Assembly (NCBI GenBank): GCA_902560875.1
Contig: CACENO010000005.1
Coordinates: 1-64,000, forward strand
Length of the DNA stretch: 64,000 nt
Direction of reading: 5' to 3'
From: an uncultured Prochlorococcus sp.
Lineage (GTDB): Bacteria; Cyanobacteriota; Cyanobacteriia; PCC-6307; Cyanobiaceae
In this document: positions 1,154 to 19,394 of the stretch, piece after piece
Numbering within the stretch: the first letter of the stretch is position 1
How the letters are laid out: each line of letters starts with the position of its first letter
Notes under the pieces: generated by a model
The model's database searches: none
Told to the model about the DNA's origin: nothing
The model's input: the letters and a program-made list of their open reading frames with translations, nothing else
Position numbers and translations under genes: made by a program

Positions 1154-3445
1154 TTATATAATATTTTTTATGCTTTCTTCTATAAATGAAAGTGCTTGGT
1201 GAAATCCTTCTCCGTGATTGAGGTGACCTTGCCAAACTTCTGGAATAAAGGTGTATGTTTTATTTTGATTGGCATAAATTTTTAAAATTTGATGAAAATC
1301 AAGGATCCCATCACCAATTTGTTGGCCTTCTTGATTGCTTTTACTAGCATCAGCTATATGTAGATGACCCGTTTGATCAATGAGATCTGTTATTGCTTGA
1401 TAAAAATCAAAATCTAAATGATTAGCAGCTAGAGCAGTATGTGAAATATCTAAACAGATGTCTAGACCAGAGCTATCAAGATAGTGATAGATTGAAGAAA
1501 TTGATGTTAGGCAATTATGGAATGAGCGGCCACCTTGATGCCAAGGAAAGGGTGGCATTGTTTGTGCAAGTAATTGCGTAAATGGATAATCTGCTTGTAA
1601 TTCTTTCATGATTTTTCCAATTTTTATTGTTTTTTGATTAGCATCTTTTGCTGTCAGTGGTTTCGTTTGAGTATGGCCACCACAATTAATAATAATTGGA
1701 ACTGATTGACTATTTGAGAAAAACTGACGAAGTAGATCAACATGTTTAAATAGAGCTATTACTCTTTTGATACTCTCATTTACATGATGTTCATTATTAG
1801 AAGCTAAATCCAGTATAAAACCATCATCATATTGTTCTACCGAATGTACAATTAGTATTTTAGATTTAAATGTTTTTAAATTCAAAAAATCTTGAGGTGA
1901 AAGTCTCAAATCATTTGCACTCATATGAAATTCATATAATGGAAGGTTGAATTTAGAATCTAAATGGTTTATATCATGGTATCTAACTGGTATACCAGGA
2001 ATTAGATTTGATATGCCTAGATTGGGAAAACTAATATCATTAATTTGACTACTATATATATGATCTGGCATAAGTATTTGACCTTCTTTTACATTGCAAG
2101 TTAGTACTTTTCCCATAATTTCATTCATATCAGAATATTTGTAGCCGATGGCAGGGCTTCGCAAGCTTAAATCAGTATTATTAATACTATGACCTGATTT
2201 TAGATCTTTAAGATAACAAAGACTTTTTCCTAATGAAATTCTATTTAGCATTTCACCCTGAGATGGTACTCTAGGTAGATCATCACCAATACTTTCTGAT
2301 ATGATACGGATTGATTTCACAAATTCTGGTAAATATCTAACTTCAATTGATGCCAGATGATCAGTCCCTAACTGATCTTTACTTCTTGTAATGTGAGATT
2401 CAATAATCCTTGCACCAAAGCCAATTGCTGCATAAGGTATAAACATATTTCCATCATGTGAAGAATAGCCTGTGACACAATTGCTTAATTCACTTAGCCT
2501 ACTAATATAAGCAAGATTGACATCTTCATGTGGTGCTGGATATGTTGAATTACAATGTAAGAAAGCATGATTTCCATGCCTTATTAGAAGATTATTTGCG
2601 TGTATTATTTCACTTTCAGATGACATTCCGGTTGAAATAATTATTGGCTTTTCAGTTTTGCCTGCCTTTATAACCAACGGGTCATTAGTAAGATCACATG
2701 ATGCTATTTTGATTGCATCAACATTCAAAGTAATGATAAAATCAAGTGATTGTTCATCAAATGGAGTGCATATTACGTCCTTTTCGTGTTGTTTTATATA
2801 TTTGATTAATTTTTCATAGATATTCCAATTTAGTTTTGTTCTATTTATTTCATTCTCAATATACTGCACAGATAATTCTTTAGACTCATATGAATCTGAA
2901 GAATAAGTCGTATCCGATCTGATTTGTAATTTGATTGCATCAAACCCTGCATTTACTGCTTGATCAATTAAGTAAATTGCCTCTTCAAAGCTTCCATTAT
3001 GGTTTACTCCAATCTCTGCAATAAGGTATACATAATGCTTATTAGTAGAAATGACTTTGTCGCCAATAATGATAGAGGGATATTCATTAAATACGCAACT
3101 AATGACTTGTCTATTGAGATTTAGAACTGGAATCAGAGTTATATTATTAGAAAGCAATCTTTCAATTACAGTATTAGAATCTGATTCACGTACAAAAACT
3201 GGATTTTTGTTGCAAACCTCATGCACATAAGACTCCTCAAGACTAGCTATTCTATTTGTAATAAATGATCTAATATCGCCACTACTTAGAATTCCGAATA
3301 AGAGATCATTGTTAGATAGAACTATTAAAGGTCTTCCATGTGTATAATCAAATCTATATAGAATATCCTTCACTTTGTCATTTGGTGAGCAAATTATATT
3401 CTTAGAAATTGAAATAAATTGGAGGTGTTTAGATAGAGAATTCAT
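1154..3445 (-). CDS. neuB: CBS-pair / NeuB nonulosonate synthase / SAF / TIM-barrel isomerase fusion
   Basis: This 763-residue fusion has four parts. Residues about 15-125 are a CBS-domain pair, a usual nucleotide sensor. Residues about 138-390 are a NeuB-type synthase that would condense phosphoenolpyruvate with an amino-sugar; visible family motifs are AEIGVNHNG, STGMSS, HCNSTYPAP and GYSSHDG. Residues about 400-475 are the SAF/antifreeze-like domain that follows the barrel in NeuB proteins. Residues about 485-763 are an AP-endonuclease-2-like TIM barrel of the sugar-phosphate isomerase/epimerase type, with CLDISH, HLHIAD and FIPEVWQG blocks. Its ATG overlaps the stop of the upstream CMP-sugar synthetase gene (ATGA), so the two are translationally coupled. 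The product could be legionaminic-, sialic- or another nonulosonic-acid precursor; the substrate cannot be read from sequence. Ordinary NeuB proteins have about 340 residues, so the extra domains are notable. Confidence 0.88.
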   Translation of the reverse strand: MNSLSKHLQFISISKNIICSPNDKVKDILYRFDYTHGRPLIVLSNNDLLFGILSSGDIRSFITNRIASLEESYVHEVCNKNPVFVRESDSNTVIERLLSNNITLIPVLNLNRQVISCVFNEYPSIIIGDKVISTNKHYVYLIAEIGVNHNGSFEEAIYLIDQAVNAGFDAIKLQIRSDTTYSSDSYESKELSVQYIENEINRTKLNWNIYEKLIKYIKQHEKDVICTPFDEQSLDFIITLNVDAIKIASCDLTNDPLVIKAGKTEKPIIISTGMSSESEIIHANNLLIRHGNHAFLHCNSTYPAPHEDVNLAYISRLSELSNCVTGYSSHDGNMFIPYAAIGFGARIIESHITRSKDQLGTDHLASIEVRYLPEFVKSIRIISESIGDDLPRVPSQGEMLNRISLGKSLCYLKDLKSGHSINNTDLSLRSPAIGYKYSDMNEIMGKVLTCNVKEGQILMPDHIYSSQINDISFPNLGISNLIPGIPVRYHDINHLDSKFNLPLYEFHMSANDLRLSPQDFLNLKTFKSKILIVHSVEQYDDGFILDLASNNEHHVNESIKRVIALFKHVDLLRQFFSNSQSVPIIINCGGHTQTKPLTAKDANQKTIKIGKIMKELQADYPFTQLLAQTMPPFPWHQGGRSFHNCLTSISSIYHYLDSSGLDICLDISHTALAANHLDFDFYQAITDLIDQTGHLHIADASKSNQEGQQIGDGILDFHQILKIYANQNKTYTFIPEVWQGHLNHGEGFHQALSFIEESIKNII

Positions 3446-4140
3446 GTTTGACCTTTCATAATTGAGGCGACAATATTTAAATCTTCCATTTCATCAATTT
3501 CGTAGGCTGATTTGCTTTGCATCTCAAATAATGTGCAGCTATGGCTTGCTCGGCACTTATATTTGTTGAAATGCTCCCTAGAAAAAATATAGATTGCTCC
3601 GTTCTCTTGTAAGACTCCTTTCCAATCTTGCCTTCTGGGTCGATTTTGAGGTTTGTAGTTTAGAGGCTTTCCGGATTCATCCCAAAAAAAACTATGTTTT
3701 CGCACCACAGAGACTAGTGGTATGCATGAATTATTCAAATACATTGCTATTGCCTCCTCTATGTCTATAGCTCTTGTAAGTGGGGATGTGGCTTGCAAAA
3801 GTACGACATGTTCATATTTGGATTCTACTTCTAAAAAATGCTTGATTACATCTTCTGTCGATGAACTGTCTTGAGCAAGTTGACTTGGCCTATCAATTAT
3901 TTCTACAGAAGGGAACAGCGTTTGACAAGTCTCTTTTATTTCAAGGTCTTCACTACTCATATAGGTATTCAGGCCAGCCAGAAGAGAAGCTTTAACTGTA
4001 AAAGCAAAGAGAGGTGAGCCATTAAGTTGCAATAAATTTTTCCTTGGAATTCCCTTAGAGCCTCCACGTAGTGGAATAAGACTTACAAAATTTGATTTAG
4101 TAATGCCTTTAAGTTTGTTTTTTGTTGCTTTTATTTCCAT
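3442..4140 (-). CDS. neuA: CMP-nonulosonate (N-acylneuraminate-type) cytidylyltransferase
   Basis: This enzyme should activate a sialic-acid-like sugar with CTP to give the CMP-sugar donor. It is 232 residues, normal for the family. The nucleotide-binding motif IPLRGGSKGIPRKN is at about residue 22, and the family blocks LLQATSPLTRAIDIEEAI and QENGAIYIF follow. The first 17 residues are a basic extension before the Rossmann-like core, so a later start is possible, but the stop/start ATGA overlap with the downstream NeuB fusion is fixed. The pairing implies both act on the same sugar. Whether this is neuraminate or legionaminate is not decidable here. Confidence 0.85.
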   Translation of the reverse strand: MEIKATKNKLKGITKSNFVSLIPLRGGSKGIPRKNLLQLNGSPLFAFTVKASLLAGLNTYMSSEDLEIKETCQTLFPSVEIIDRPSQLAQDSSSTEDVIKHFLEVESKYEHVVLLQATSPLTRAIDIEEAIAMYLNNSCIPLVSVVRKHSFFWDESGKPLNYKPQNRPRRQDWKGVLQENGAIYIFSREHFNKYKCRASHSCTLFEMQSKSAYEIDEMEDLNIVASIMKGQT

Positions 4141-4264: not shown

Positions 4265-5812
4265 TTAAAGCAAGAATGATTGCTTAAAGAAAGAAATTAA
4301 TCTTTGAATAGTTCCTGGAGATGCAATTCTCCATCCATTTTCCATTAATCCATACTCCGAGTTTGTTGGTTTAAAGAAATTAAACCTTGGAGGATATTCC
4401 ATAGCCCAGGCACCGTATATATATGCACTAGTGGGATTCTTAGCTTCAAAAGTAATTTTTTGATGTAGAACCTTCGCAAGGTCTTCTTTATCTTTGCAGA
4501 ATTTAACTTCTGAAATTACTTCATCATAATAGCATTGTGTGATAGATATCGATGGTTTCCCAAGGGCAATAGCTTCTATCCCAACTGAAGAACCTGATGT
4601 AATAATTAGGTCCGATTCTTTGAGTAGCAAATAAGTTGATTCCTTATCAAAATGACTAATCCATTTTACATATTCATTTTGAATATTACTACCTATATCA
4701 TGCCATCTTCTCTGTTCAATTAGACTTTTTGACCTTAAATTTGGATGTACTCTTACAATAAAAAGATATCCTAGAGATTTAACTATTTTAGCTATTGATG
4801 TTATTGCTAATTCTTGACTTCCCCAATAAGGGTATCTAGTAGAATTAGGATCTATAAATTGAAATTCATCGTTACTAGAAGTGTAGTAAGAAATAATTTT
4901 CATTTTCTTTTTCTTACATTCTCTGATTAATTTATTTAATTGTGGTGATAGGTATTCTGATTGACCTTTAACATACGATTGTTCATATACGCCATCACCA
5001 CTAGTTTTTCTTTTGAAAAATTCCTTACCAATTTCCGTAATAAGTTCAGGTGTAATCTGTTCCTTTACTTTTAAAATTTCCTTTTTTCGTTCTTGGAAAT
5101 TATGAGGCATGTATTGTTCAAAGAAAAACCTATTAAATTGATAAGGTGGGCCACACTCATGAAAATAGACATCTAGATTCTTAGCATAGGCTACTTGCTT
5201 AACTGCATTTTCGCATGTAAATCTTCCATTGAGGAGTACAATTGAGTCATATTTACCTTGGTCTTTAAGTATTTCCTTAGCTAGCTTAATTGATTTAATT
5301 GCTGATCGTAAAAGTTGATTTAACTCATATTTTACTTTCCTGCTCAGGGGAAAAGGATCAGGATCTTTAAGAGAAGAGATTAAAGTACTAGCAATACCAA
5401 TGCCTATATTTAGGTTTTCAAATTCTAGTCTTTTTAATTGATCCAGAGTATTTACTTCTGGGTTCAAGATATGATTTTTTAGAAGTGAAATCCTTTGCAT
5501 CATTTGTTCAACAATCTCAGAAGGATTAATCCATTTTATTTTGACAGGCGAAGCTTTATTACTCTCTATGATATAGTTTTTAGCTCGCAATATTCGAATT
5601 CGAAGCTGCACTTCTCTTTTTAATTTATTGGCTGGAAATAGAGTAGGTCTTGATACATATTGGCCTAGATGAATATATGAAACTGCATTTCTGATTGAAA
5701 GCCGTCTCGCGACTTCAAGACTTGTCTCTAAATGAGGAGTTGACCCTGTAAAGCTAACTATCAGTATTTTTTTTCCTTGTATGCTGTCAATTGTCGAATT
5801 TACATACTCCAT
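4265..5812 (-). CDS. Surface polysaccharide glycosyltransferase-like protein (GT-B type)
   Basis: This 515-residue protein looks like a capsule/surface polysaccharide biosynthesis protein. It begins with a Rossmann-like segment (KKILIVSFTGSTPHLETSLEVA, given here only as a fold cue). Its C-terminal half has the GT-B signature seen in Kdo and CDP-glycerol transferases: RVHPNLRSK near residue 370 and ESDLIITSGSSVGIEA near residue 420, then LGKPSI. The DNA is AT-rich and the gene sits between the two nonulosonic acid modules. A role in transferring a CMP-activated sugar onto a surface glycan is an inference from context. Confidence 0.65.
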   Translation of the reverse strand: MEYVNSTIDSIQGKKILIVSFTGSTPHLETSLEVARRLSIRNAVSYIHLGQYVSRPTLFPANKLKREVQLRIRILRAKNYIIESNKASPVKIKWINPSEIVEQMMQRISLLKNHILNPEVNTLDQLKRLEFENLNIGIGIASTLISSLKDPDPFPLSRKVKYELNQLLRSAIKSIKLAKEILKDQGKYDSIVLLNGRFTCENAVKQVAYAKNLDVYFHECGPPYQFNRFFFEQYMPHNFQERKKEILKVKEQITPELITEIGKEFFKRKTSGDGVYEQSYVKGQSEYLSPQLNKLIRECKKKKMKIISYYTSSNDEFQFIDPNSTRYPYWGSQELAITSIAKIVKSLGYLFIVRVHPNLRSKSLIEQRRWHDIGSNIQNEYVKWISHFDKESTYLLLKESDLIITSGSSVGIEAIALGKPSISITQCYYDEVISEVKFCKDKEDLAKVLHQKITFEAKNPTSAYIYGAWAMEYPPRFNFFKPTNSEYGLMENGWRIASPGTIQRLISFFKQSFLL

Positions 5813-6497: not shown

Positions 6498-7538
6498 ATG
6501 TTTTGTATTGAAGGCCGTCAAATATCTGCTGAATTTCCACCCTATATCATCGCGGAGATCTCGGCGAATCATAATGGTTCTCTCTCCAAAGCAAAACAGT
6601 GTATAGAAGCGGCAAAAGTGGCGGGTGCTAGTGCTGTAAAAATTCAAACATATACAGCAGATACTATGACCATAGACTCAGATCAGGAAGATTTTATTAT
6701 TAGTGATGGATTATGGAGTGGATATAAACTTTATGATCTATATCAAGAGGCACATACACCGTTTGAGTGGCATGCAGAATTATTTTTACATGCAAAAAAT
6801 ATAGGAATTCCTATATTCTCCTCTCCATTTGATGAAACAGCAGTTGATCTTTTAGAAGATTTATCTGCGCCAGCTTACAAAGTGGCTTCTTTTGAATTAT
6901 GCGATATCCCTTTAATTAAGTATATAGCAAAAACTAAAAAGCCTATCTTGATGTCTACTGGAATGGCGTCACCTTCAGATGTTGATGCAGCTGTTCAAAC
7001 TGCTATGAAATATGGTTGTGAGCAATTATTATTATTTCATTGTATTAGTAGTTATCCAGCTCCTGTAGAAGAGGCAAATCTAAGTAATATCTCTTTTTTA
7101 AAAGATCGGTATCATGTTGAAGTTGGCCTTTCAGATCATACATTAGGTACGACAGCAGCAATAGCTTCTGTCGCTTTGGGTGCTACAGCAGTTGAAAAGC
7201 ATTTCACTCTTTCTAAACATGATCCAGGTCCTGATAGTGCTTTTTCTATTGACCCAAAAGAATTAGGTCAACTGGTTAAATATACGAAAGAAGCATGGAA
7301 TTCTTTAGGGGAAGGCGGATTGATTCGTTCTGAAACAGAATTAACTAATATGAAATTTAAGCGTTCAATATATTTTGTACAAAGTTTACAAAGAGGGGAG
7401 ATAGTACAAGAAAAACATATTCGTAGAATAAGACCAGGGTTTGGATTATCTCCTCAATATTATGACTCTATTATAGGTAAGAGAGTTAAGACCAATGTTG
7501 AGAGGGGAGAACGTGTAAGTTGGGATTTATTTGAATGA
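6498..7538 (+). CDS. pseI: Pseudaminic acid synthase
   Basis: PseI condenses phosphoenolpyruvate with 2,4-diacetamido-2,4,6-trideoxy-L-altrose to give pseudaminic acid. The protein is 346 residues, the usual length. NeuB-barrel motifs are present: AEISANHNG near residue 19, KIQTYTADTMT, SSPFDETAVD, STGMASPSDV, FHCISSYPAP and GLSDHTLG. The LYDLYQEAHTPFEWH block favours PseI over NeuB. The SAF domain occupies about 285-346. It is the only plus-strand gene of the island's left part and converges on the pse operon, so it must have its own promoter. Confidence 0.93.
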   Translation: MFCIEGRQISAEFPPYIIAEISANHNGSLSKAKQCIEAAKVAGASAVKIQTYTADTMTIDSDQEDFIISDGLWSGYKLYDLYQEAHTPFEWHAELFLHAKNIGIPIFSSPFDETAVDLLEDLSAPAYKVASFELCDIPLIKYIAKTKKPILMSTGMASPSDVDAAVQTAMKYGCEQLLLFHCISSYPAPVEEANLSNISFLKDRYHVEVGLSDHTLGTTAAIASVALGATAVEKHFTLSKHDPGPDSAFSIDPKELGQLVKYTKEAWNSLGEGGLIRSETELTNMKFKRSIYFVQSLQRGEIVQEKHIRRIRPGFGLSPQYYDSIIGKRVKTNVERGERVSWDLFE

Positions 7539-7556
7539 TCTTTCAGGAAGTAAGAT

Positions 7557-8036
7557 TTAGTTTACTTTAAATAAATTTCCATACTGACAAAATCCCTCAG
7601 GGTGTTCTAATTCTCTTAAGGTAGTTAACTCCAAGAAACCCAATGAATTCAGAAGTTTTTGTGAAGGAATATTTTCATTTCGAACATTTGCACATATAAA
7701 ACAATCAGAGTTTTCCAAAGTAATCAGTAACTGGATAGATTTTTCCACTAAACTTTTGGAGAGGTTCAAGCCTCTAAATTTTTTAAGTAAAGTGAATGAA
7801 ATCACATAGTCATTAGATAATTTCTTAAATCTACAAACTCCTATTTTTTCTTTATTGACGCTCCCTACAACTAATAATGCTTTATTAGATACTAATGATT
7901 GTGCATACCATTTTTCATGGATAGATGTACTTATGTAGAGATTATCTGGAGAATTATTACGTGATAGATCATCATTTTTTAGGTAATAAAAAAAATAGCT
8001 ATCATTTTCTGTCGCTTTACGTATATCAATTTTCAT
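7557..8036 (-). CDS. GNAT N-acetyltransferase, probable PseH-type
   Basis: A 159-residue GNAT-fold acyl-CoA transferase of the RimJ/RimL branch. The start (IDIRKATENDS) matches GNAT beta-1, FRGLNLSKSLVEKSI near residue 90 is the acetyl-CoA-binding loop and helix, and NVRNENIPSQKLLNSLGF is the typical C-terminal motif. Its ATG overlaps the stop of the upstream MBL gene by four bases. As last gene of the pse operon it is the best candidate for the 4-N-acetylation step (PseH role), which is an inference from context because GNAT substrates are not readable. Confidence 0.78.
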   Translation of the reverse strand: MKIDIRKATENDSYFFYYLKNDDLSRNNSPDNLYISTSIHEKWYAQSLVSNKALLVVGSVNKEKIGVCRFKKLSNDYVISFTLLKKFRGLNLSKSLVEKSIQLLITLENSDCFICANVRNENIPSQKLLNSLGFLELTTLRELEHPEGFCQYGNLFKVN

Positions 8037-9205
8037 GAAAAAGGTGGCAGGGTAAGATCTTGTTTGGATTGTTTTTGCTGTCTATAGGTCCACTTGACTA
8101 GATGTATATATTCATCTTTCATATTATAAGAATGAGGTTTATATATTTTGCCTAGGCCTCCTGTAATTATACTTTCGATATTTAATTTTCCCCTAAGAAT
8201 TTCGTTCCAAACTGAAGGCAAAGCCGAAATACTGATGGATTTTAGGTCTGGTATTTCACTTTCATAAGTGTGAAATTTAATAGGCATTAAGTTTAATTTG
8301 TGTGATTTTTTATATAGTGCAAATTGGTCTTCTAGATGTCTTAATCTAGTATCTAATATGCTCATTTTATTTTGCATAGTTTTTTTATATTCGTTGCCAA
8401 TAATTTGGTCGGATGGCATTAATTGTACCAATTCTATTTTGTACTTTTCAATGATTTGATCTTTTAACTTGTATGGATCAAACTTAGTACTATTCATGCT
8501 AAATTTACTTTGATTTGCATAAATAAAACCTTGAGCAATTGAGAGTTTAGCCATGTTAATTAATACTGACTTGCACATATAATTCAATTTTTTTGAGATT
8601 ATATTTTTCTTTTCATCTATTGAAATTCCATCATAAAAGATAGGATATGCATCAGCAATTCCAACTTGGGAGAATAATAGCTTTTCGCTACTATTATTTG
8701 CATTAAATATATGATTTATTTTATTGATAGTTTCTTTTCTAAACTCTCTCCAATTATCATTTGCATGAACAATTGTTGACCTCTCATTGCTAATGACAAA
8801 TATAAAATCCTCGTCAGTCAAGTTTCCATCTTGGATGGCAGCTATATTGAAACCATTTAAATCTACAGCATCTTCTCCAATTTCAATTATTTGCTGTCTA
8901 TCTATTCCAAATAAGGTTAATCTATTAATGAGTCCTTTATTATTTGTTTTAGGTATAATGATTTTTGTTTTCTGGTTTAATCGAATTAATAGTTCTTCAT
9001 CAATATGATCATCATGAGCATGGGAGATGATTACTATATCAAGATTGTTTTTTCCAGTCAGGATTTTTTTGACAGTTTCAGTATGTGGATAGGGATATTG
9101 GTACCATCCACCAAAGGCATTCTTAAAGATCCAAGGATCTGTTAAGAGGCTAGAATTTTTTCCTTCTATGTATAAGCTGCTGTGATTCACATGTGTAATA
9201 TTCAT
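8033..9205 (-). CDS. Metallo-beta-lactamase-fold protein, CMAH/UlaG-like, without Rieske domain
   Basis: A 390-residue MBL-fold protein. LLTDPWIFKNAFGGWYQYP near residue 20 and IISHAHDDHIDEE near residue 58 (the HxHxDH metal motif) resemble the MBL part of CMP-N-acetylneuraminate hydroxylase and UlaG-type lactonases. The N-terminal Rieske domain of true CMAH is missing. It lies inside the pse operon between the DUF218 gene and the GNAT gene, two bases after the former and overlapping the latter. Because no PseG is present, a role as an unusual nucleotide-sugar hydrolase or as a nonulosonate-modifying enzyme is possible; this is inference. Confidence 0.75.
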   Translation of the reverse strand: MNITHVNHSSLYIEGKNSSLLTDPWIFKNAFGGWYQYPYPHTETVKKILTGKNNLDIVIISHAHDDHIDEELLIRLNQKTKIIIPKTNNKGLINRLTLFGIDRQQIIEIGEDAVDLNGFNIAAIQDGNLTDEDFIFVISNERSTIVHANDNWREFRKETINKINHIFNANNSSEKLLFSQVGIADAYPIFYDGISIDEKKNIISKKLNYMCKSVLINMAKLSIAQGFIYANQSKFSMNSTKFDPYKLKDQIIEKYKIELVQLMPSDQIIGNEYKKTMQNKMSILDTRLRHLEDQFALYKKSHKLNLMPIKFHTYESEIPDLKSISISALPSVWNEILRGKLNIESIITGGLGKIYKPHSYNMKDEYIHLVKWTYRQQKQSKQDLTLPPFS

Positions 9206-9207
9206 TG

Positions 9208-9792
9208 TTAATTATCTTGGTATAATTTGTGAAAGGCTTTCAAAAAAGGAATAGGCTCATTATGGTTGAAATTTAGAAATGTTTGGATAAAAACTTTTGT
9301 TGAATTTTCTTCCCTTTTCATTATAGTCTTTATTTGGTTATCATCCATATAATTAATTTCAGATGTTTTGGATAACGAAATTTCGTATTGATCTTTATAA
9401 ATCAAATCAAATATGATCTTTGCTCTTTTGCAATGCCAATCTGATGTGATGATTTTCACTTTACCTTTAAACTTCTTGTTGCTTAATATTTCTTTGGAAA
9501 AGATTGCATCACCTACCGAATCTAATGAGTTTTTATCTAGAAAATATTGTGGAATATATTTATGTTTTTCTAAATAGTACTTGAGCATACATTCAGATAT
9601 GGATAAAGGACACTCTCCCTGCTTTCTTCCTAAGCCCATGAACAAAATCAAAATATCATCATTTTTATGTTTTTTAACTTCTTGGTTTAATACTTCGCAG
9701 CGTTTTTTTCCTGAGTCAGATAATATAAAATCATTTTGATTGATTTCATGACCTAAGACTATAAAGCATATATTATTTTTAGAAGTTAACAT
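9208..9792 (-). CDS. DUF218 / YdcF-ElyC-SanA-like protein in the pse operon
   Basis: A 194-residue single-domain protein. The opening NICFIVLGHEIN, the L(F/Y)MGLGRKQGE segment, the KNSLDSVGDAIFSKEIL segment near 110 and KVKIITSDWHCKRAKIIF near 130 follow the DUF218 pattern (GxG, N/S-T-x-E-N-A region, TSxxHxxRA). Most DUF218 proteins carry a membrane anchor; this one has none. Its ATG directly abuts the pseF stop, so it belongs to the operon. Biochemical function is unknown; it is not a PseG homologue by motif. Confidence 0.65.
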   Translation of the reverse strand: MLTSKNNICFIVLGHEINQNDFILSDSGKKRCEVLNQEVKKHKNDDILILFMGLGRKQGECPLSISECMLKYYLEKHKYIPQYFLDKNSLDSVGDAIFSKEILSNKKFKGKVKIITSDWHCKRAKIIFDLIYKDQYEISLSKTSEINYMDDNQIKTIMKREENSTKVFIQTFLNFNHNEPIPFLKAFHKLYQDN

Positions 9793-10485
9793 TTAATTAG
9801 TATTTAGTATGTTGTGCATTAATTCTGCATACTCCCAGTCCTCTGGAGTATCAATATCTTGTACACGAGACTTGGGTAATAATAACATTTTACTCCCTTC
9901 AAAAATATTCGATGTAGTTAACCATGCTTCCTGGCTACCCCAGTAAAATTGACCAGCATCAAAATATAATTCTTTTAAATCCTGACTTCTTTTACAATAG
10001 TTTTCTGGTTGGACCATTTCACATAAATTACTTTTTGGATTTAGTTTTAATGCTCTTTGTATCGAGGATTCAAATTTGCCACCAGTAAATACAAATTGGT
10101 TTTTTTCTAAAGATTTTATTAGTTTTTTTGCTTTTTGAAGATCAGTTGTTTCAATAAATGGGGCTGTAGCATATAAACAGCAGATTGTTGCTGGATTGAT
10201 TCCTTGATTTTGTAGCCATTCTATGGCATGCACAATGACAGGAATTGTTCCTATATATTCATTTGCGAGATCATCAGGTCTAATAAAAGGTACTTCTGCT
10301 CCAAATGATTTTGCAATTTCTGCAATCTCTTGATTATCAGTACTAACAAATATATTTTCAAAGCAACCGGAATAAATAGCAGCTTGAATAGACCAAGCAA
10401 TCATTGGCTTTCCACAAAATTCACGTATATTTTTTCGTGGAATTCGTTTGCTTCCTCCACGGGCAGGAATAATGCATATGTTCAT
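9793..10485 (-). CDS. pseF: Pseudaminic acid cytidylyltransferase
   Basis: PseF makes CMP-pseudaminic acid. The motif IIPARGGSKRIPRKNIREFCGKPM at the N terminus (only its first part is diagnostic) and YATAPFIETTDLQKA, FDAGQFYWG and VQDIDTPEDW blocks fit PseF rather than NeuA. The start is set at the internal ATG at 10485 because AAGGAAAT lies about eight bases upstream; a longer frame to 10512 would overlap pseC and add nine residues lacking conservation. With this start the gene begins one base after the pseC stop, consistent with an operon. Confidence 0.92.
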   Translation of the reverse strand: MNICIIPARGGSKRIPRKNIREFCGKPMIAWSIQAAIYSGCFENIFVSTDNQEIAEIAKSFGAEVPFIRPDDLANEYIGTIPVIVHAIEWLQNQGINPATICCLYATAPFIETTDLQKAKKLIKSLEKNQFVFTGGKFESSIQRALKLNPKSNLCEMVQPENYCKRSQDLKELYFDAGQFYWGSQEAWLTTSNIFEGSKMLLLPKSRVQDIDTPEDWEYAELMHNILNTN

Positions 10486-10486
10486 T

Positions 10487-11680
10487 TTATATTTCCTTAT
10501 TGGCTTGATCAAATGCTATTGATAATGAATTGATGATCTGTTTCATCTGATTATCTGCTAGTCCTGGAAATAATGGCAACGATATCGCATTAGTGCCATG
10601 CTTCTCTGACTCAGGGAAATCACCTTCTTTAAAGCCTAACTTCCTAAAATAAGGTTGTAAATGAACTGGGGTGTAATGAACTTGAACACCTATTCCCAAA
10701 CTCTGCATGATTTGAAATATCTTTCGGTGTAAATTAGGATTCGAATTATTTAGTCTAACAATACAAAGGTGAACTGAACTTTTTACATTTTCAGGTATCT
10801 CTAGTATCCGCAGTGGAAAGTCTTTTGTTAAATCCTGGTATTTATTTAGTAGATAATTTCTCTCAACTATGGTTTGTTCAAGGCGGTTAAGCTGACTGAT
10901 ACCTAGAGCACATTGAATATCTGTAATTCTATAATTAAAGCCTAATACTTGTTGTTCGTAAATCCATGGACTCATTTCTTTTTGTGTAAATCTTTTCTGG
11001 TCCTTTACGATTCCATGACTTCTTAAATCTTTCATTCTTTGGTAAAGAGAATAATCATTAGTGGTGGCCAAACCTCCTTCACCAGTGGTAATAATTTTAA
11101 CTGGGTGAAAGCTAAATATGGTAATAGAGCTGTATTTACAGCTCCCTACAGGTTCATTATTATATTCACCACCTATAGCATGACTTGCATCCTCGATTAC
11201 ATTGAATCCATATTCCTGAGATAGTTTAAAAATAGATTTCATGTCGCAACTGCTTCCAGCAAGGTGAACTGGGATTAGAATTTTTGGTAAACTATTAGTA
11301 AGTCTTGCCTCCTGAAGCTTTCTCTTCAATGCTTCGACATTGATCAGACCTGTCATTGGACTAATATCAATAAAATCAATTTTTGCATTGCAGTAAAGGC
11401 CACAGTTAGCCGATGCTACAAAAGTGTTAGGAGTTGTCCATAATGAGTCATTAGGCCCTAATCCTAAAGTCAAACATGCAACGTGGAGAGCACTCGTGGC
11501 GCTGTTTAGCGCAACACCAAACTTGGCTTTGACTTTACTCGCGACTGCTTCTTCAAAAGAATTAATGAGTGGCCCTTGTGTTAATAAAGAATTTCTTAAA
11601 ACCTCATTGACTGCATCAATATCTTCTTCGGTAATAGTGTGACGGCCATATGGGATAAATGCATCTTGTTCTATTTTCAT
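10487..11680 (-). CDS. pseC: UDP-4-amino-4,6-dideoxy-N-acetyl-beta-L-altrosamine transaminase
   Basis: A 397-residue DegT/DnrJ/EryC1 PLP-dependent sugar aminotransferase, acting second in pseudaminic acid synthesis after PseB. Family features are FIPYGRHTITEEDIDAV at the N terminus, GVALNSATSALHVA, EDASHAIGGEY, and FSFHPVKIITTGEGG, whose lysine is the PLP Schiff-base residue. NYRITDIQCALG and the C-terminal HYTPVHLQPYF block are also typical. It overlaps the pseB stop by four bases (ATGA). Function is assigned from family plus neighbours pseB and pseF. Confidence 0.92.
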   Translation of the reverse strand: MKIEQDAFIPYGRHTITEEDIDAVNEVLRNSLLTQGPLINSFEEAVASKVKAKFGVALNSATSALHVACLTLGLGPNDSLWTTPNTFVASANCGLYCNAKIDFIDISPMTGLINVEALKRKLQEARLTNSLPKILIPVHLAGSSCDMKSIFKLSQEYGFNVIEDASHAIGGEYNNEPVGSCKYSSITIFSFHPVKIITTGEGGLATTNDYSLYQRMKDLRSHGIVKDQKRFTQKEMSPWIYEQQVLGFNYRITDIQCALGISQLNRLEQTIVERNYLLNKYQDLTKDFPLRILEIPENVKSSVHLCIVRLNNSNPNLHRKIFQIMQSLGIGVQVHYTPVHLQPYFRKLGFKEGDFPESEKHGTNAISLPLFPGLADNQMKQIINSLSIAFDQANKEI

Positions 11681-12696
11681 ATTGGCTTAAAGGACGTATC
11701 AACATTTTCAATAATCATGCTGCGTATTTGATCAATACTTAGGAAGTCAGGGTTATTTAATGAATTATATGAAAACCCTGTAGGTACTGGTTTAATTCTA
11801 ATATTCGCCTTTTTATATTGCTTCTTGATATTTTCATCGCTAGGGAAAATAATATAGTAATTGTCCATTTCGTATGTGTTAAAGCTATCAGCAGAAGTAA
11901 TCATTTCTTCATGAATCTTTTCTCCAGGACGAATGCCTACATTTTCTATTTTGCAATTAGGACCAATAGCTTTTGCGACATCTATTATTCGATAACTAGG
12001 TATTTTAGGTACTAATAACTCTCCTCCAAAGTTATTTTTGAGTGCCCATAAAACCATAGAGACGCCATCTTTTAGTGAGATATTAAATCGTGTCATCCTT
12101 TCATCAGTGATCGGTAAAATACCTTCTTTTGCTTTCTCTAGAAAAAATGGTATTACTGAACCGCGAGATCCCATCACGTTTCCATAACGAACCACTGAAA
12201 TACGTAAATCACGGTTTCCTTTTATATTGTTAGCGGCAATAAATAATTTATCTGAACAAAGCTTTGTTGCACCGTAGAGATTAATAGGAGCAGTTGCTTT
12301 GTCTGTGCTTAATGCAACTACTTGTTTAACATTTGAATCTAGACAGGCCCTTACTACATTTTCGGCTCCTAGGACATTTGTATTTATGAATTCAATAGGA
12401 TTATATTCCGCTGCAGGTACCTGTTTGAGAGCTGCAGCATGGATAACAGTATCTACTTGCTCAAGAGCAAGTTTTAGGCGATCTCGATCACGCACATCCC
12501 CTAAAAAGAATCTCAACTGTGGATAGTTTTTCTTTGGATATAACTGTTGTAATTCCCATTGCTTCAATTCATCACGGCTATAGATTACGATTCGACTAAT
12601 TTCTGGATATTTTTGTAAAACCTCTTTAATAAAAGCCTTGCCAAAACTTCCGGTGCCGCCAGTGATAAGGATACGAGAATTTGAATTAAAAGCCAT
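11677..12696 (-). CDS. pseB: UDP-N-acetylglucosamine 4,6-dehydratase (inverting)
   Basis: A 339-residue short-chain dehydrogenase/reductase-type enzyme catalysing the first pse step: UDP-GlcNAc to the 4-keto-6-deoxy-L-arabino sugar. The NAD(P)-binding motif GGTGSFGKAF is at residue 12, and VIYSRDELKQWE, HAAALKQVPAAEYNP and LSTDKATAPINLYGATKL follow, with the catalytic D-K pair of inverting PseB enzymes in STDKA. First gene of a tightly packed minus-strand operon, so its promoter lies in 12697-13010. Confidence 0.94.
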   Translation of the reverse strand: MAFNSNSRILITGGTGSFGKAFIKEVLQKYPEISRIVIYSRDELKQWELQQLYPKKNYPQLRFFLGDVRDRDRLKLALEQVDTVIHAAALKQVPAAEYNPIEFINTNVLGAENVVRACLDSNVKQVVALSTDKATAPINLYGATKLCSDKLFIAANNIKGNRDLRISVVRYGNVMGSRGSVIPFFLEKAKEGILPITDERMTRFNISLKDGVSMVLWALKNNFGGELLVPKIPSYRIIDVAKAIGPNCKIENVGIRPGEKIHEEMITSADSFNTYEMDNYYIIFPSDENIKKQYKKANIRIKPVPTGFSYNSLNNPDFLSIDQIRSMIIENVDTSFKPI

Positions 12697-18068: not shown

Positions 18069-19394
18069 ATGTTCAAGGTCTTCTATAAATATTCAGCTTG
18101 CATAAAAATATGCACTGATGATATAGTTATTTTGTGTGACCCCTGGTTTAGTGACAATGCTTATAATGGAACCTGGATTCAATACCCATATATAACAGAT
18201 GTAGTAAATCTAATTGGTGATTTTGACATAGTTTATCTAAGTCACATTCATCCAGACCATTACTGCTATGATACGTTAGATTTGTTATTTCAAACTTACG
18301 GTGAAAAGAAAATAATCATTGCAGATTGGGGAAATACTCAGCCTAACTATCTACAAAAGAAGATAAGTAGTGATGGCTTCTCTCATTTGATTGATATAAC
18401 CAATAATCAGATAATTAAGGATACGGAAATCAATTTAATACCAAATCATACAGGTTCAATTAATGATATTGATAGTGCATTAATAGTCTCATCAAGATCT
18501 AAAGGAAAAGCAGTTTTGAATATTAACGACTGTATTTACAATAAATCTCATTTCGACCACATTTTAAACTTGCAAAAAAAACTCAAAACAGAGTTTGTTT
18601 TATTTTGCCTTGGCTACACAGGAGCAGGACCCTATCCTCAAACCTATTATTCTCCAAAGAATGAAAGAGATATCCTCATTAACAAATCTAACGCTAAGAA
18701 AAAGACTTTTTTTGATAGATATAAAAAAGCAATAGCTCAAATACCTTCCACAAAGAGACTGCCCTTTGCTGGAAAATATTTACTACAAGGTGATCTTTCC
18801 GTTCTTAATCCATATAGAGGAGTTGCTGACGCGTTAGAAGTAAAAGATTTTGATCCAGATGCAATCATTCTTGATGATGGAGGCGATGCTTTTTTTGATT
18901 TGGAAAATGTTTGCTCTTCTAGAGAAAGAAAGGAGTTTTATAAATATCCAGAAACTATTAAATCCAACAAAGATTATTTCTGGAGAACCGCTATCTCATT
19001 TAGTCCATCAGATTCCTTGCTGAAAAGATTGCTGGTTCAAAGTGTTAAAAGAGCACATGCTAAGTCAGAATGTATTTCAAATTGCTTTTATTCCATATAT
19101 TCTTATTCCGATCCCAGTGAACTTCAGGATATTTGGTTGGTTAATAAACCCTACAATGAGAGAACTCCTCTTATAACATTCAACTGTAGAAAAGATTGCA
19201 ACCCTTTAGATGTAGTCGAAAAGTGTACAATCCATTCTCATTTATTTATTGAATCTAAGGCATTATTTGCAGTCCTAACAGGACTTACTCATTGGAACAA
19301 CTATGAAGTCGGTAGTGTATTTCAAGTGCGCAGAGTTCCAGATTGTTTTGATCAAACGATGCAATCATACTTAAACTTTCTATCCGTTATATGA
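18069..19394 (+). CDS. CMAH-like metallo-beta-lactamase-fold protein without Rieske domain
   Basis: A 441-residue MBL-fold protein. ILCDPWFSDNAYNGTWIQYP near residue 28 and VYLSHIHPDHYCYDTL near residue 57 closely follow the MBL segment of CMP-N-acetylneuraminate hydroxylase, and the C-terminal ALFAVLTGLTHWNNYEVGS block near 405 also matches that family. The Rieske iron-sulphur domain of hydroxylating CMAH is absent, so hydroxylation as in animals is unlikely unless a separate partner supplies electrons. The ATG follows a GAGAATTACA leader. It is the last island gene before the tmRNA. Confidence 0.78.
   Translation: MFKVFYKYSACIKICTDDIVILCDPWFSDNAYNGTWIQYPYITDVVNLIGDFDIVYLSHIHPDHYCYDTLDLLFQTYGEKKIIIADWGNTQPNYLQKKISSDGFSHLIDITNNQIIKDTEINLIPNHTGSINDIDSALIVSSRSKGKAVLNINDCIYNKSHFDHILNLQKKLKTEFVLFCLGYTGAGPYPQTYYSPKNERDILINKSNAKKKTFFDRYKKAIAQIPSTKRLPFAGKYLLQGDLSVLNPYRGVADALEVKDFDPDAIILDDGGDAFFDLENVCSSRERKEFYKYPETIKSNKDYFWRTAISFSPSDSLLKRLLVQSVKRAHAKSECISNCFYSIYSYSDPSELQDIWLVNKPYNERTPLITFNCRKDCNPLDVVEKCTIHSHLFIESKALFAVLTGLTHWNNYEVGSVFQVRRVPDCFDQTMQSYLNFLSVI

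Follow-up and report, generated by a model that had tools for sequence, protein, structure and literature searches.

The NeuB enzyme of N. meningitidis (Nm NeuB) carries in its SAF domain an arginine, R314, that was reported to be essential and that touches the N-acetyl part of ManNAc (PMC6795526). A fusion that resembles the protein discussed here was described in 2012, when the NulO synthase of L. interrogans was presented as having an endonuclease-homologous C-terminal domain, which was read as a phosphatase (PMC3438082); a fusion of such a general kind was thus already known. In the open-access literature searched, we found no description of a four-domain NeuB, nor of the arginine loss in fusions and the rule of CBS placement set out below, which is not proof of absence, and no biochemistry of any four-domain member. 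Regarding regulation, adenine nucleotides are frequent ligands of CBS pairs, and the CMP-Kdo pathway starts with arabinose-5-phosphate isomerase. A description of CBS with CMP-Kdo was not found in the open-access literature searched. Inhibition by a CMP-nonulosonate has reportedly been observed, to judge from the title of work by McNally et al., and its target is PseB, which opens the pathway to that CMP-nonulosonate.

The stretch of DNA that was analysed, here called the window, comprises the 64,000 leftmost nucleotides of contig C5 in a 1.36-Mb assembly, 74% complete, of an uncultured Prochlorococcus. Near its left end, an uninterrupted ORF with an ATG start encodes a protein of 763 aa that consists, in this order, of a CBS pair, a NeuB domain, a SAF domain and a barrel of the AP_endonuc_2/xylose-isomerase-like type (Table 1). 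With the curated cut-offs of Pfam, NeuB (aa 159-388, 203.6 bits) and SAF (32.7 bits) were recognised above threshold, as were AP_endonuc_2 (aa 622-756, 42.7 bits against a cut-off of 31.1) and the first CBS repeat (aa 15-62, 28.8 bits against 24). The second repeat stays below Pfam detection, and a family profile built from relatives identified the complete CBS pair with a score of about 72-73 bits. These searches bear out the domain content, order and coordinates given in the first-pass annotation. Since the same architecture is conserved in four-domain relatives that share only 32-42% identity over the full length, the fusion is not due to chance. An AlphaFold2 model of the whole protein reached a pLDDT of 83.8, with lower values of about 50-85 in the CBS part.

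Table 1 Features of the fusion gene and its upstream neighbours in the window
Feature	Position	Strand	Basis or remark
Four-domain ulosonate (NeuB-type) synthase, 763 aa	1154..3445	-	ORF and Pfam; relatives with identical architecture
N-terminal CBS pair, aa 11-129, CBS1 motif GILSSGDI	3059..3415	-	Pfam CBS; family profile
NeuB synthase barrel, aa 139-388, Nm NeuB catalytic residues conserved	2282..3031	-	Pfam; alignment
SAF (antifreeze-like) domain, aa 412-463	2057..2212	-	Pfam
Ser430 codon, equivalent to the Nm NeuB Arg314 position	2156..2158	-	Alignment
C-terminal xylose-isomerase-like barrel, aa 473-763; invariant Q628, D666, H669, H696, E736	1157..2029	-	Pfam, alignment, AlphaFold2
CMP-sugar (cytidylyl) synthetase, upstream gene	3442..4140	-	PF02348; conserved partner of the fusion family
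515-aa protein weakly similar to surface-carbohydrate enzymes, perhaps a glycosyltransferase	4265..5812	-	Profile matches

The fusion had initially been called unusual, a view that does not hold, as the fused barrel occurs in hundreds of genomes. In the family to which the source organism belongs, 44 of 300 genomes encode the barrel; 39 of these matches lie in ORFs of 757-893 aa, which is the four-domain length (CBS was confirmed in those that were read), and the remaining five in ORFs of 614-649 aa. A scan of GTDB genomes with a barrel alignment produced at least 560 confirmed relatives, the matches being distributed over Pseudomonadota, Bacteroidota, Cyanobacteriota, Nitrospirota, Nitrospinota, Bacillota, Verrucomicrobiota and other phyla. 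The best 80 of these loci comprise 34 with four domains and 46 without CBS on the synthase, and the barrel was located behind NeuB in the same ORF in all 72 that could be parsed. A rare or artefactual fusion is ruled out by these counts. The window protein has the family characteristics, i.e. a single ORF, the Q/D/H/E site in the barrel and no arginine at the R314 position, and in the tree it falls within a starred branch of seven Prochlorococcus-type sequences, its nearest named relatives being Prochlorococcus. The family, which combines an optional CBS pair with NeuB, SAF and the barrel, is widespread and uncharacterised, and the window protein is one of its divergent members. In viral sequences, a scan with a single sequence gave no match, and the alignment scan detected one locus (IMGVR_UViG_3300009370_001778, L179), in which a CBS-less NeuB-SAF-barrel fusion overlaps a CMP-synthetase gene, with a likely glycosyltransferase and methyltransferases also present.

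Residues of Nm NeuB were mapped by alignment onto 83 fusions. Positions E25, K53, Q55, K129, Y186, S213, H215 and D247 are conserved in all of them, and E234 and H236 in 82, the remaining case being an unread letter; E134 is replaced by Asp in the window protein. The protein is almost certainly a NeuB-type ulosonate synthase. Its scores on TIGR03569 (N-acetylneuraminate synthase; 249.8 bits) and TIGR03586 (pseudaminic acid synthase; 194.6 bits) are below the respective equivalog cut-offs of 399.65 and 340.25. The position of R314, of which the R314A and R314K forms of Nm NeuB are represented by PDB entries 4ipi and 4ipj, is never arginine in the 83 fusions (78 Ser, 2 Gly, 1 Ala, 1 Cys, 1 Pro), and it is arginine in each of the 24 scorable stand-alone NeuB and PseI enzymes, including the PseI encoded in the window. 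In the sample examined, the residue change thus goes together with the barrel. Placed in neither group was a flavoprotein-NeuB fusion with Ala at this position, found in Prochlorococcus AG-347-L20 (L094, 6882-9251), where a 790-aa protein combining a UDP-galactopyranose-mutase-like flavoprotein with NeuB is encoded directly after a four-domain fusion. Nm N74, N184 and F288 were discarded as additional pocket markers, as they vary in stand-alone enzymes too.

Since the arginine that holds the 2-acetamido group corresponds to serine in the window protein, the most likely substrate would be an aldose without such a group, a proposal that extrapolates from a single enzyme, Nm NeuB, and that we consider reasonably but not strongly probable. 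Conversion of such an aldose would yield a Kdn-like or higher 2-keto-3-deoxy acid, and not Neu5Ac, legionaminic acid or pseudaminic acid. The assignment of the L. interrogans fusion to Neu5Ac, and hence to a 2-acetamido substrate, counts against this proposal (PMC3438082).

For the barrel alone, AlphaFold2 modelling on 63 members gave a pLDDT of 94.8 and a pTM of 0.93, and PF01261 is matched by 62 of the 63. The nearest solved folds are the D-tagatose 3-epimerase-like MJ1311, L-ribulose 3-epimerase, UlaE and endonuclease IV, with ketose 3-epimerases at the top. Profile alignments with MJ1311 and endonuclease IV equate Asp666 and His669 with the D..H pair of strand beta-6 and His696 with the beta-7 histidine, and place Gln628 at the position of the beta-5 glutamate; Glu736 lies in the beta-8 strand. 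These five residues occur in all 63 sequences, which have 21 invariant columns altogether. According to the alignments, the metal site is largely conserved. A barrel lacking catalytic residues had been named beforehand as an outcome that would speak against the fusion being functional in the way supposed, and the invariance of Asp666, His696 and Glu736 goes against that outcome. It is probable that the barrel is catalytic. Alternatively, it could be a structural or ligand-binding module without catalytic function, shaping the oligomer or taking over the contact made by the SAF arginine, in which case the product could be an ordinary 2-acetamido nonulosonate. Such compensation would fit the coincidence of arginine loss and barrel in every SAF-bearing synthase tested, except for the one barrel-less flavoprotein-NeuB fusion, and the replacement of the beta-5 glutamate by glutamine in all members would fit as well. 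Nevertheless, we regard a non-catalytic module as unlikely, because invariant residues maintained across many phyla, including the active-site positions Asp666, His669, His696 and Glu736, point to catalysis or very specific binding, and because precursor genes of the NeuC, PseB and PseC type are not common beside the four-domain type.

If the barrel is indeed an enzyme, its reaction may differ from those of its structural neighbours. The 3-epimerases use a pair of glutamates, and since one of these is glutamine throughout the family, a classical two-glutamate 3-epimerase is unlikely. The DRHE (D-x-H) segment that follows beta-7 in endonuclease IV (1xp3) has no counterpart in sequence alignments of the barrel family; together with the glutamine in place of a glutamate ligand, this suggests that the tri-metal phosphodiesterase site was not retained. 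The same two observations, as well as the ranking of ketose 3-epimerases as top structural matches, make it very doubtful that the barrel is a phosphatase that clears the phosphate from a synthase product which would be a phosphorylated ulosonate, as in animals, even though this was proposed for L. interrogans (PMC3438082), endonuclease IV is among the nearest folds, and phospho-sugar enzymes are encoded in the heptose-type operons. The favoured interpretation is that the barrel would act as a metal-dependent sugar enzyme with chemistry unlike that of the 3-epimerases and endonuclease IV. A second, separate AP_endonuc_2 barrel gene is present in 19 loci with CBS-less fusions (e.g. L113, 8262-9110).

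The CBS pair of the window protein is divergent, with at most 29% identity to other CBS pairs in the set. Its best described match is KpsF/GutQ, and its PDB match is 4o9k, an arabinose-5-phosphate isomerase. The motif G-x-x-[ST]-x-G-D of CBS1 is conserved in most members of the family. The first-pass annotation envisaged a pair that senses AMP and ATP, and a sensor of adenylate energy charge that throttles the use of phosphoenolpyruvate would agree with this motif and with the frequent binding of adenine nucleotides by CBS pairs. However, the best described relatives belong to arabinose-5-phosphate isomerases, which makes a CMP-sugar or a cytidine nucleotide no less probable as ligand, and the HddA kinases of sister operons carry this CBS type too, an arrangement that agrees at least equally well with pathway feedback. 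An adenylate sensor is therefore considered improbable. Regulation of a committed enzyme by the CBS pair, also part of the earlier proposal, agrees with the location of the pair on HddA when it is not on the synthase; the sensing of AMP/ATP did not receive specific support.

The placement of the CBS pair follows a simple pattern. Among the best 80 GTDB loci, the 34 with CBS on the synthase include one (L058) that was recognised by tblastn only, and none of the 33 that could be parsed has an HddA-type kinase nearby. Conversely, HddA is encoded directly upstream of 44 of the 46 CBS-less fusions, in operons that add HddC, GmhB and GmhA; 40 of these kinases possess an N-terminal CBS pair and the other four are cut by contig ends. 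The two CBS-less fusions without HddA are L070, situated at a contig end, and L106, which has none. The pair was thus found on NeuB or on HddA, and never on both in the loci examined. Among the cyanobacterial loci examined, nine carry the CBS pair on the synthase and have no HddA, two have CBS-HddA, and three divergent CBS-less copies have neither. Fisher's test gives p 1e-20 for the separation of the two states, a value that overstates the evidence since the tree requires a minimum of only three changes for CBS on NeuB and four for HddA; for the same reason, many independent moves of the CBS pair are not supported. A tree of the CBS pairs alone was poorly resolved and does not show which enzyme carried the pair first. 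Taken together, the KpsF-type CBS, its placement on HddA and the CMP-nonulosonate precedent favour product feedback over adenylate sensing, and we give about even weight to the pair being a feedback module of the pathway. As one operon type has it on the synthase and the other on the heptose kinase, the pair provides a testable case of a regulatory module that tracks the committed step.

No HddA was found in the 74%-complete source genome; on its contig C6 (L177, 10815-12133), a GmhA-like gene is located beside an NTP_transferase gene. Bradyrhizose is a bicyclic sugar of photosynthetic bradyrhizobia (PMC4743980). A link between it and the HddA-type operon of Bradyrhizobium was considered and dropped, as the synthesis genes were reported to be unknown and another cluster was proposed (PMC4743980).

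Regarding the other neighbours, the 3' end of the cytidylyltransferase gene overlaps the start of the fusion gene by 4 bp. This CMP-synthetase is the sole widely conserved partner of four-domain-type loci, accounting for 30 of the 101 neighbouring genes at some 30 loci, and UDP-sugar 2-epimerase, DegT aminotransferase and PseB-type dehydratase are not among their 25 most frequent neighbour families. The fusion, the CMP-synthetase and the 515-aa gene are found together in one relative (L033), where the 515-aa homologue is encoded on the other strand. In five loci (L048, L055, L066, L072, L073), a lyase of the dihydrodipicolinate-synthase/NanA type with the lysine motif [IL]KED is encoded downstream of the four-domain fusion, at a distance of at most 24 bp in four of them. 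In Prochlorococcus AG-402-O21 (L067, 7590-9373, and L034), the fusion and an SpsF-like gene are followed by a split transketolase pair. In marine Synechococcus-type loci such as L035, L037, L038 and L040, the four-domain fusion is surrounded by a conserved cluster that comprises a sulfotransferase gene (scanned in L035) and two genes of the DUF6716 glycosyltransferase-like type.

The window contains a second synthase/CMP-synthetase pair in a pseudaminic acid gene set (6498-12696) that encodes PseI, a GNAT acetyltransferase, PseF, PseC and PseB, the PseI (6498-7538) scoring 480.5 bits on TIGR03586. Since this set has its own PseI and PseF, the fusion is not its synthase, and a role in the adjacent pathway is unlikely also because the fusion travels without the Pse set in relatives. 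PseG was not recognisable in the set; a metallo-beta-lactamase-fold protein (8033-9205) and a DUF218 protein (9208-9792) are encoded in its middle and might replace it. Another ORF (18069-19394), metallo-beta-lactamase-fold-like by eye (motif SHIHPDHY), lies downstream of a further likely surface-sugar gene.

These results can be combined in a scheme for which we see the chances as evenly divided: a synthase under feedback control, fused to a metal-dependent barrel, would make an ulosonic acid without a 2-acetamido group and feed a dedicated CMP-synthetase. The NeuB core, according to the chemistry of its family and its conserved catalytic residues, would condense phosphoenolpyruvate with an aldose to the Kdn-like or higher 2-keto-3-deoxy acid, which the neighbouring cytidylyltransferase would activate as a CMP-sugar. 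The CBS pair would exert allosteric feedback on this committed enzyme, with the CMP-ulosonate or a cytidine nucleotide as its likeliest ligand, and the barrel, a putative metal-dependent member of the xylose-isomerase-like superfamily, may work on the substrate or the product of the synthase. A bolder proposal, to which we assign a low probability, is that the fusions represent an unrecognised class of ulosonate pathways without 2-acetamido sugars. Loci with CBS on NeuB would then produce a Kdn-like C9 acid from a free hexose that the barrel might supply or edit, and loci with HddA, GmhA, GmhB and HddC-type genes would combine a heptose with phosphoenolpyruvate to a C10 (deculosonic) acid. In both cases, the committed step would be marked by the mobile CBS pair, which would read the CMP-activated product. 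Where annotated, genes of this family bear the name N-acetylneuraminate synthase (family), which would lead one to expect sialic-acid-like surfaces in marine picocyanobacteria and many proteobacteria. Should the loss of the arginine have the meaning suggested here, many of these annotations would have to be revised, perhaps also the interpretation of the Leptospira domain as a phosphatase published in 2012, and an acidic sugar of another kind would be common in the ocean.

It is useful to compare the fusion with known systems. Nm NeuB (PDB 1xuu; TIGR03569) shares the NeuB barrel, the SAF domain and the tested catalytic residues except R314 and E134, but it lacks both the CBS pair and the C-terminal barrel and has Arg314 where the window protein has Ser. 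The PseI of the window has the same catalytic core and SAF domain, but is a stand-alone protein of 346 aa that retains the arginine and, unlike the fusion, adjoins a dedicated Pse gene set. The L. interrogans synthase (NP_711794 / YP_002104), compared by its published description, resembles the fusion in joining a NeuB-type synthase to a C-terminal domain homologous to phosphodiester-cleaving endonucleases; that description mentions no CBS and reads the protein as a Neu5Ac-9-phosphate synthase/phosphatase (PMC3438082). With the D-tagatose and L-ribulose 3-epimerases and endonuclease IV of the PF01261 superfamily, the barrel has the fold and the Asp, His and Glu metal-ligand positions in common, whereas identity is about 9-16% and beta-5 carries Gln in all 63 members. 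The arabinose-5-phosphate isomerases KpsF, KdsD and GutQ possess a CBS pair of the same type and feed a CMP-ulosonate pathway, but in these enzymes the pair is joined to an SIS isomerase and in the window protein to the synthase. In the sister operons, a related CBS pair is attached to a GHMP kinase, HddA (D-glycero-D-manno-heptose 7-phosphate kinase), which is encoded together with GmhA, GmhB and HddC-type genes, directly upstream of the CBS-less NeuB-SAF-barrel fusion.
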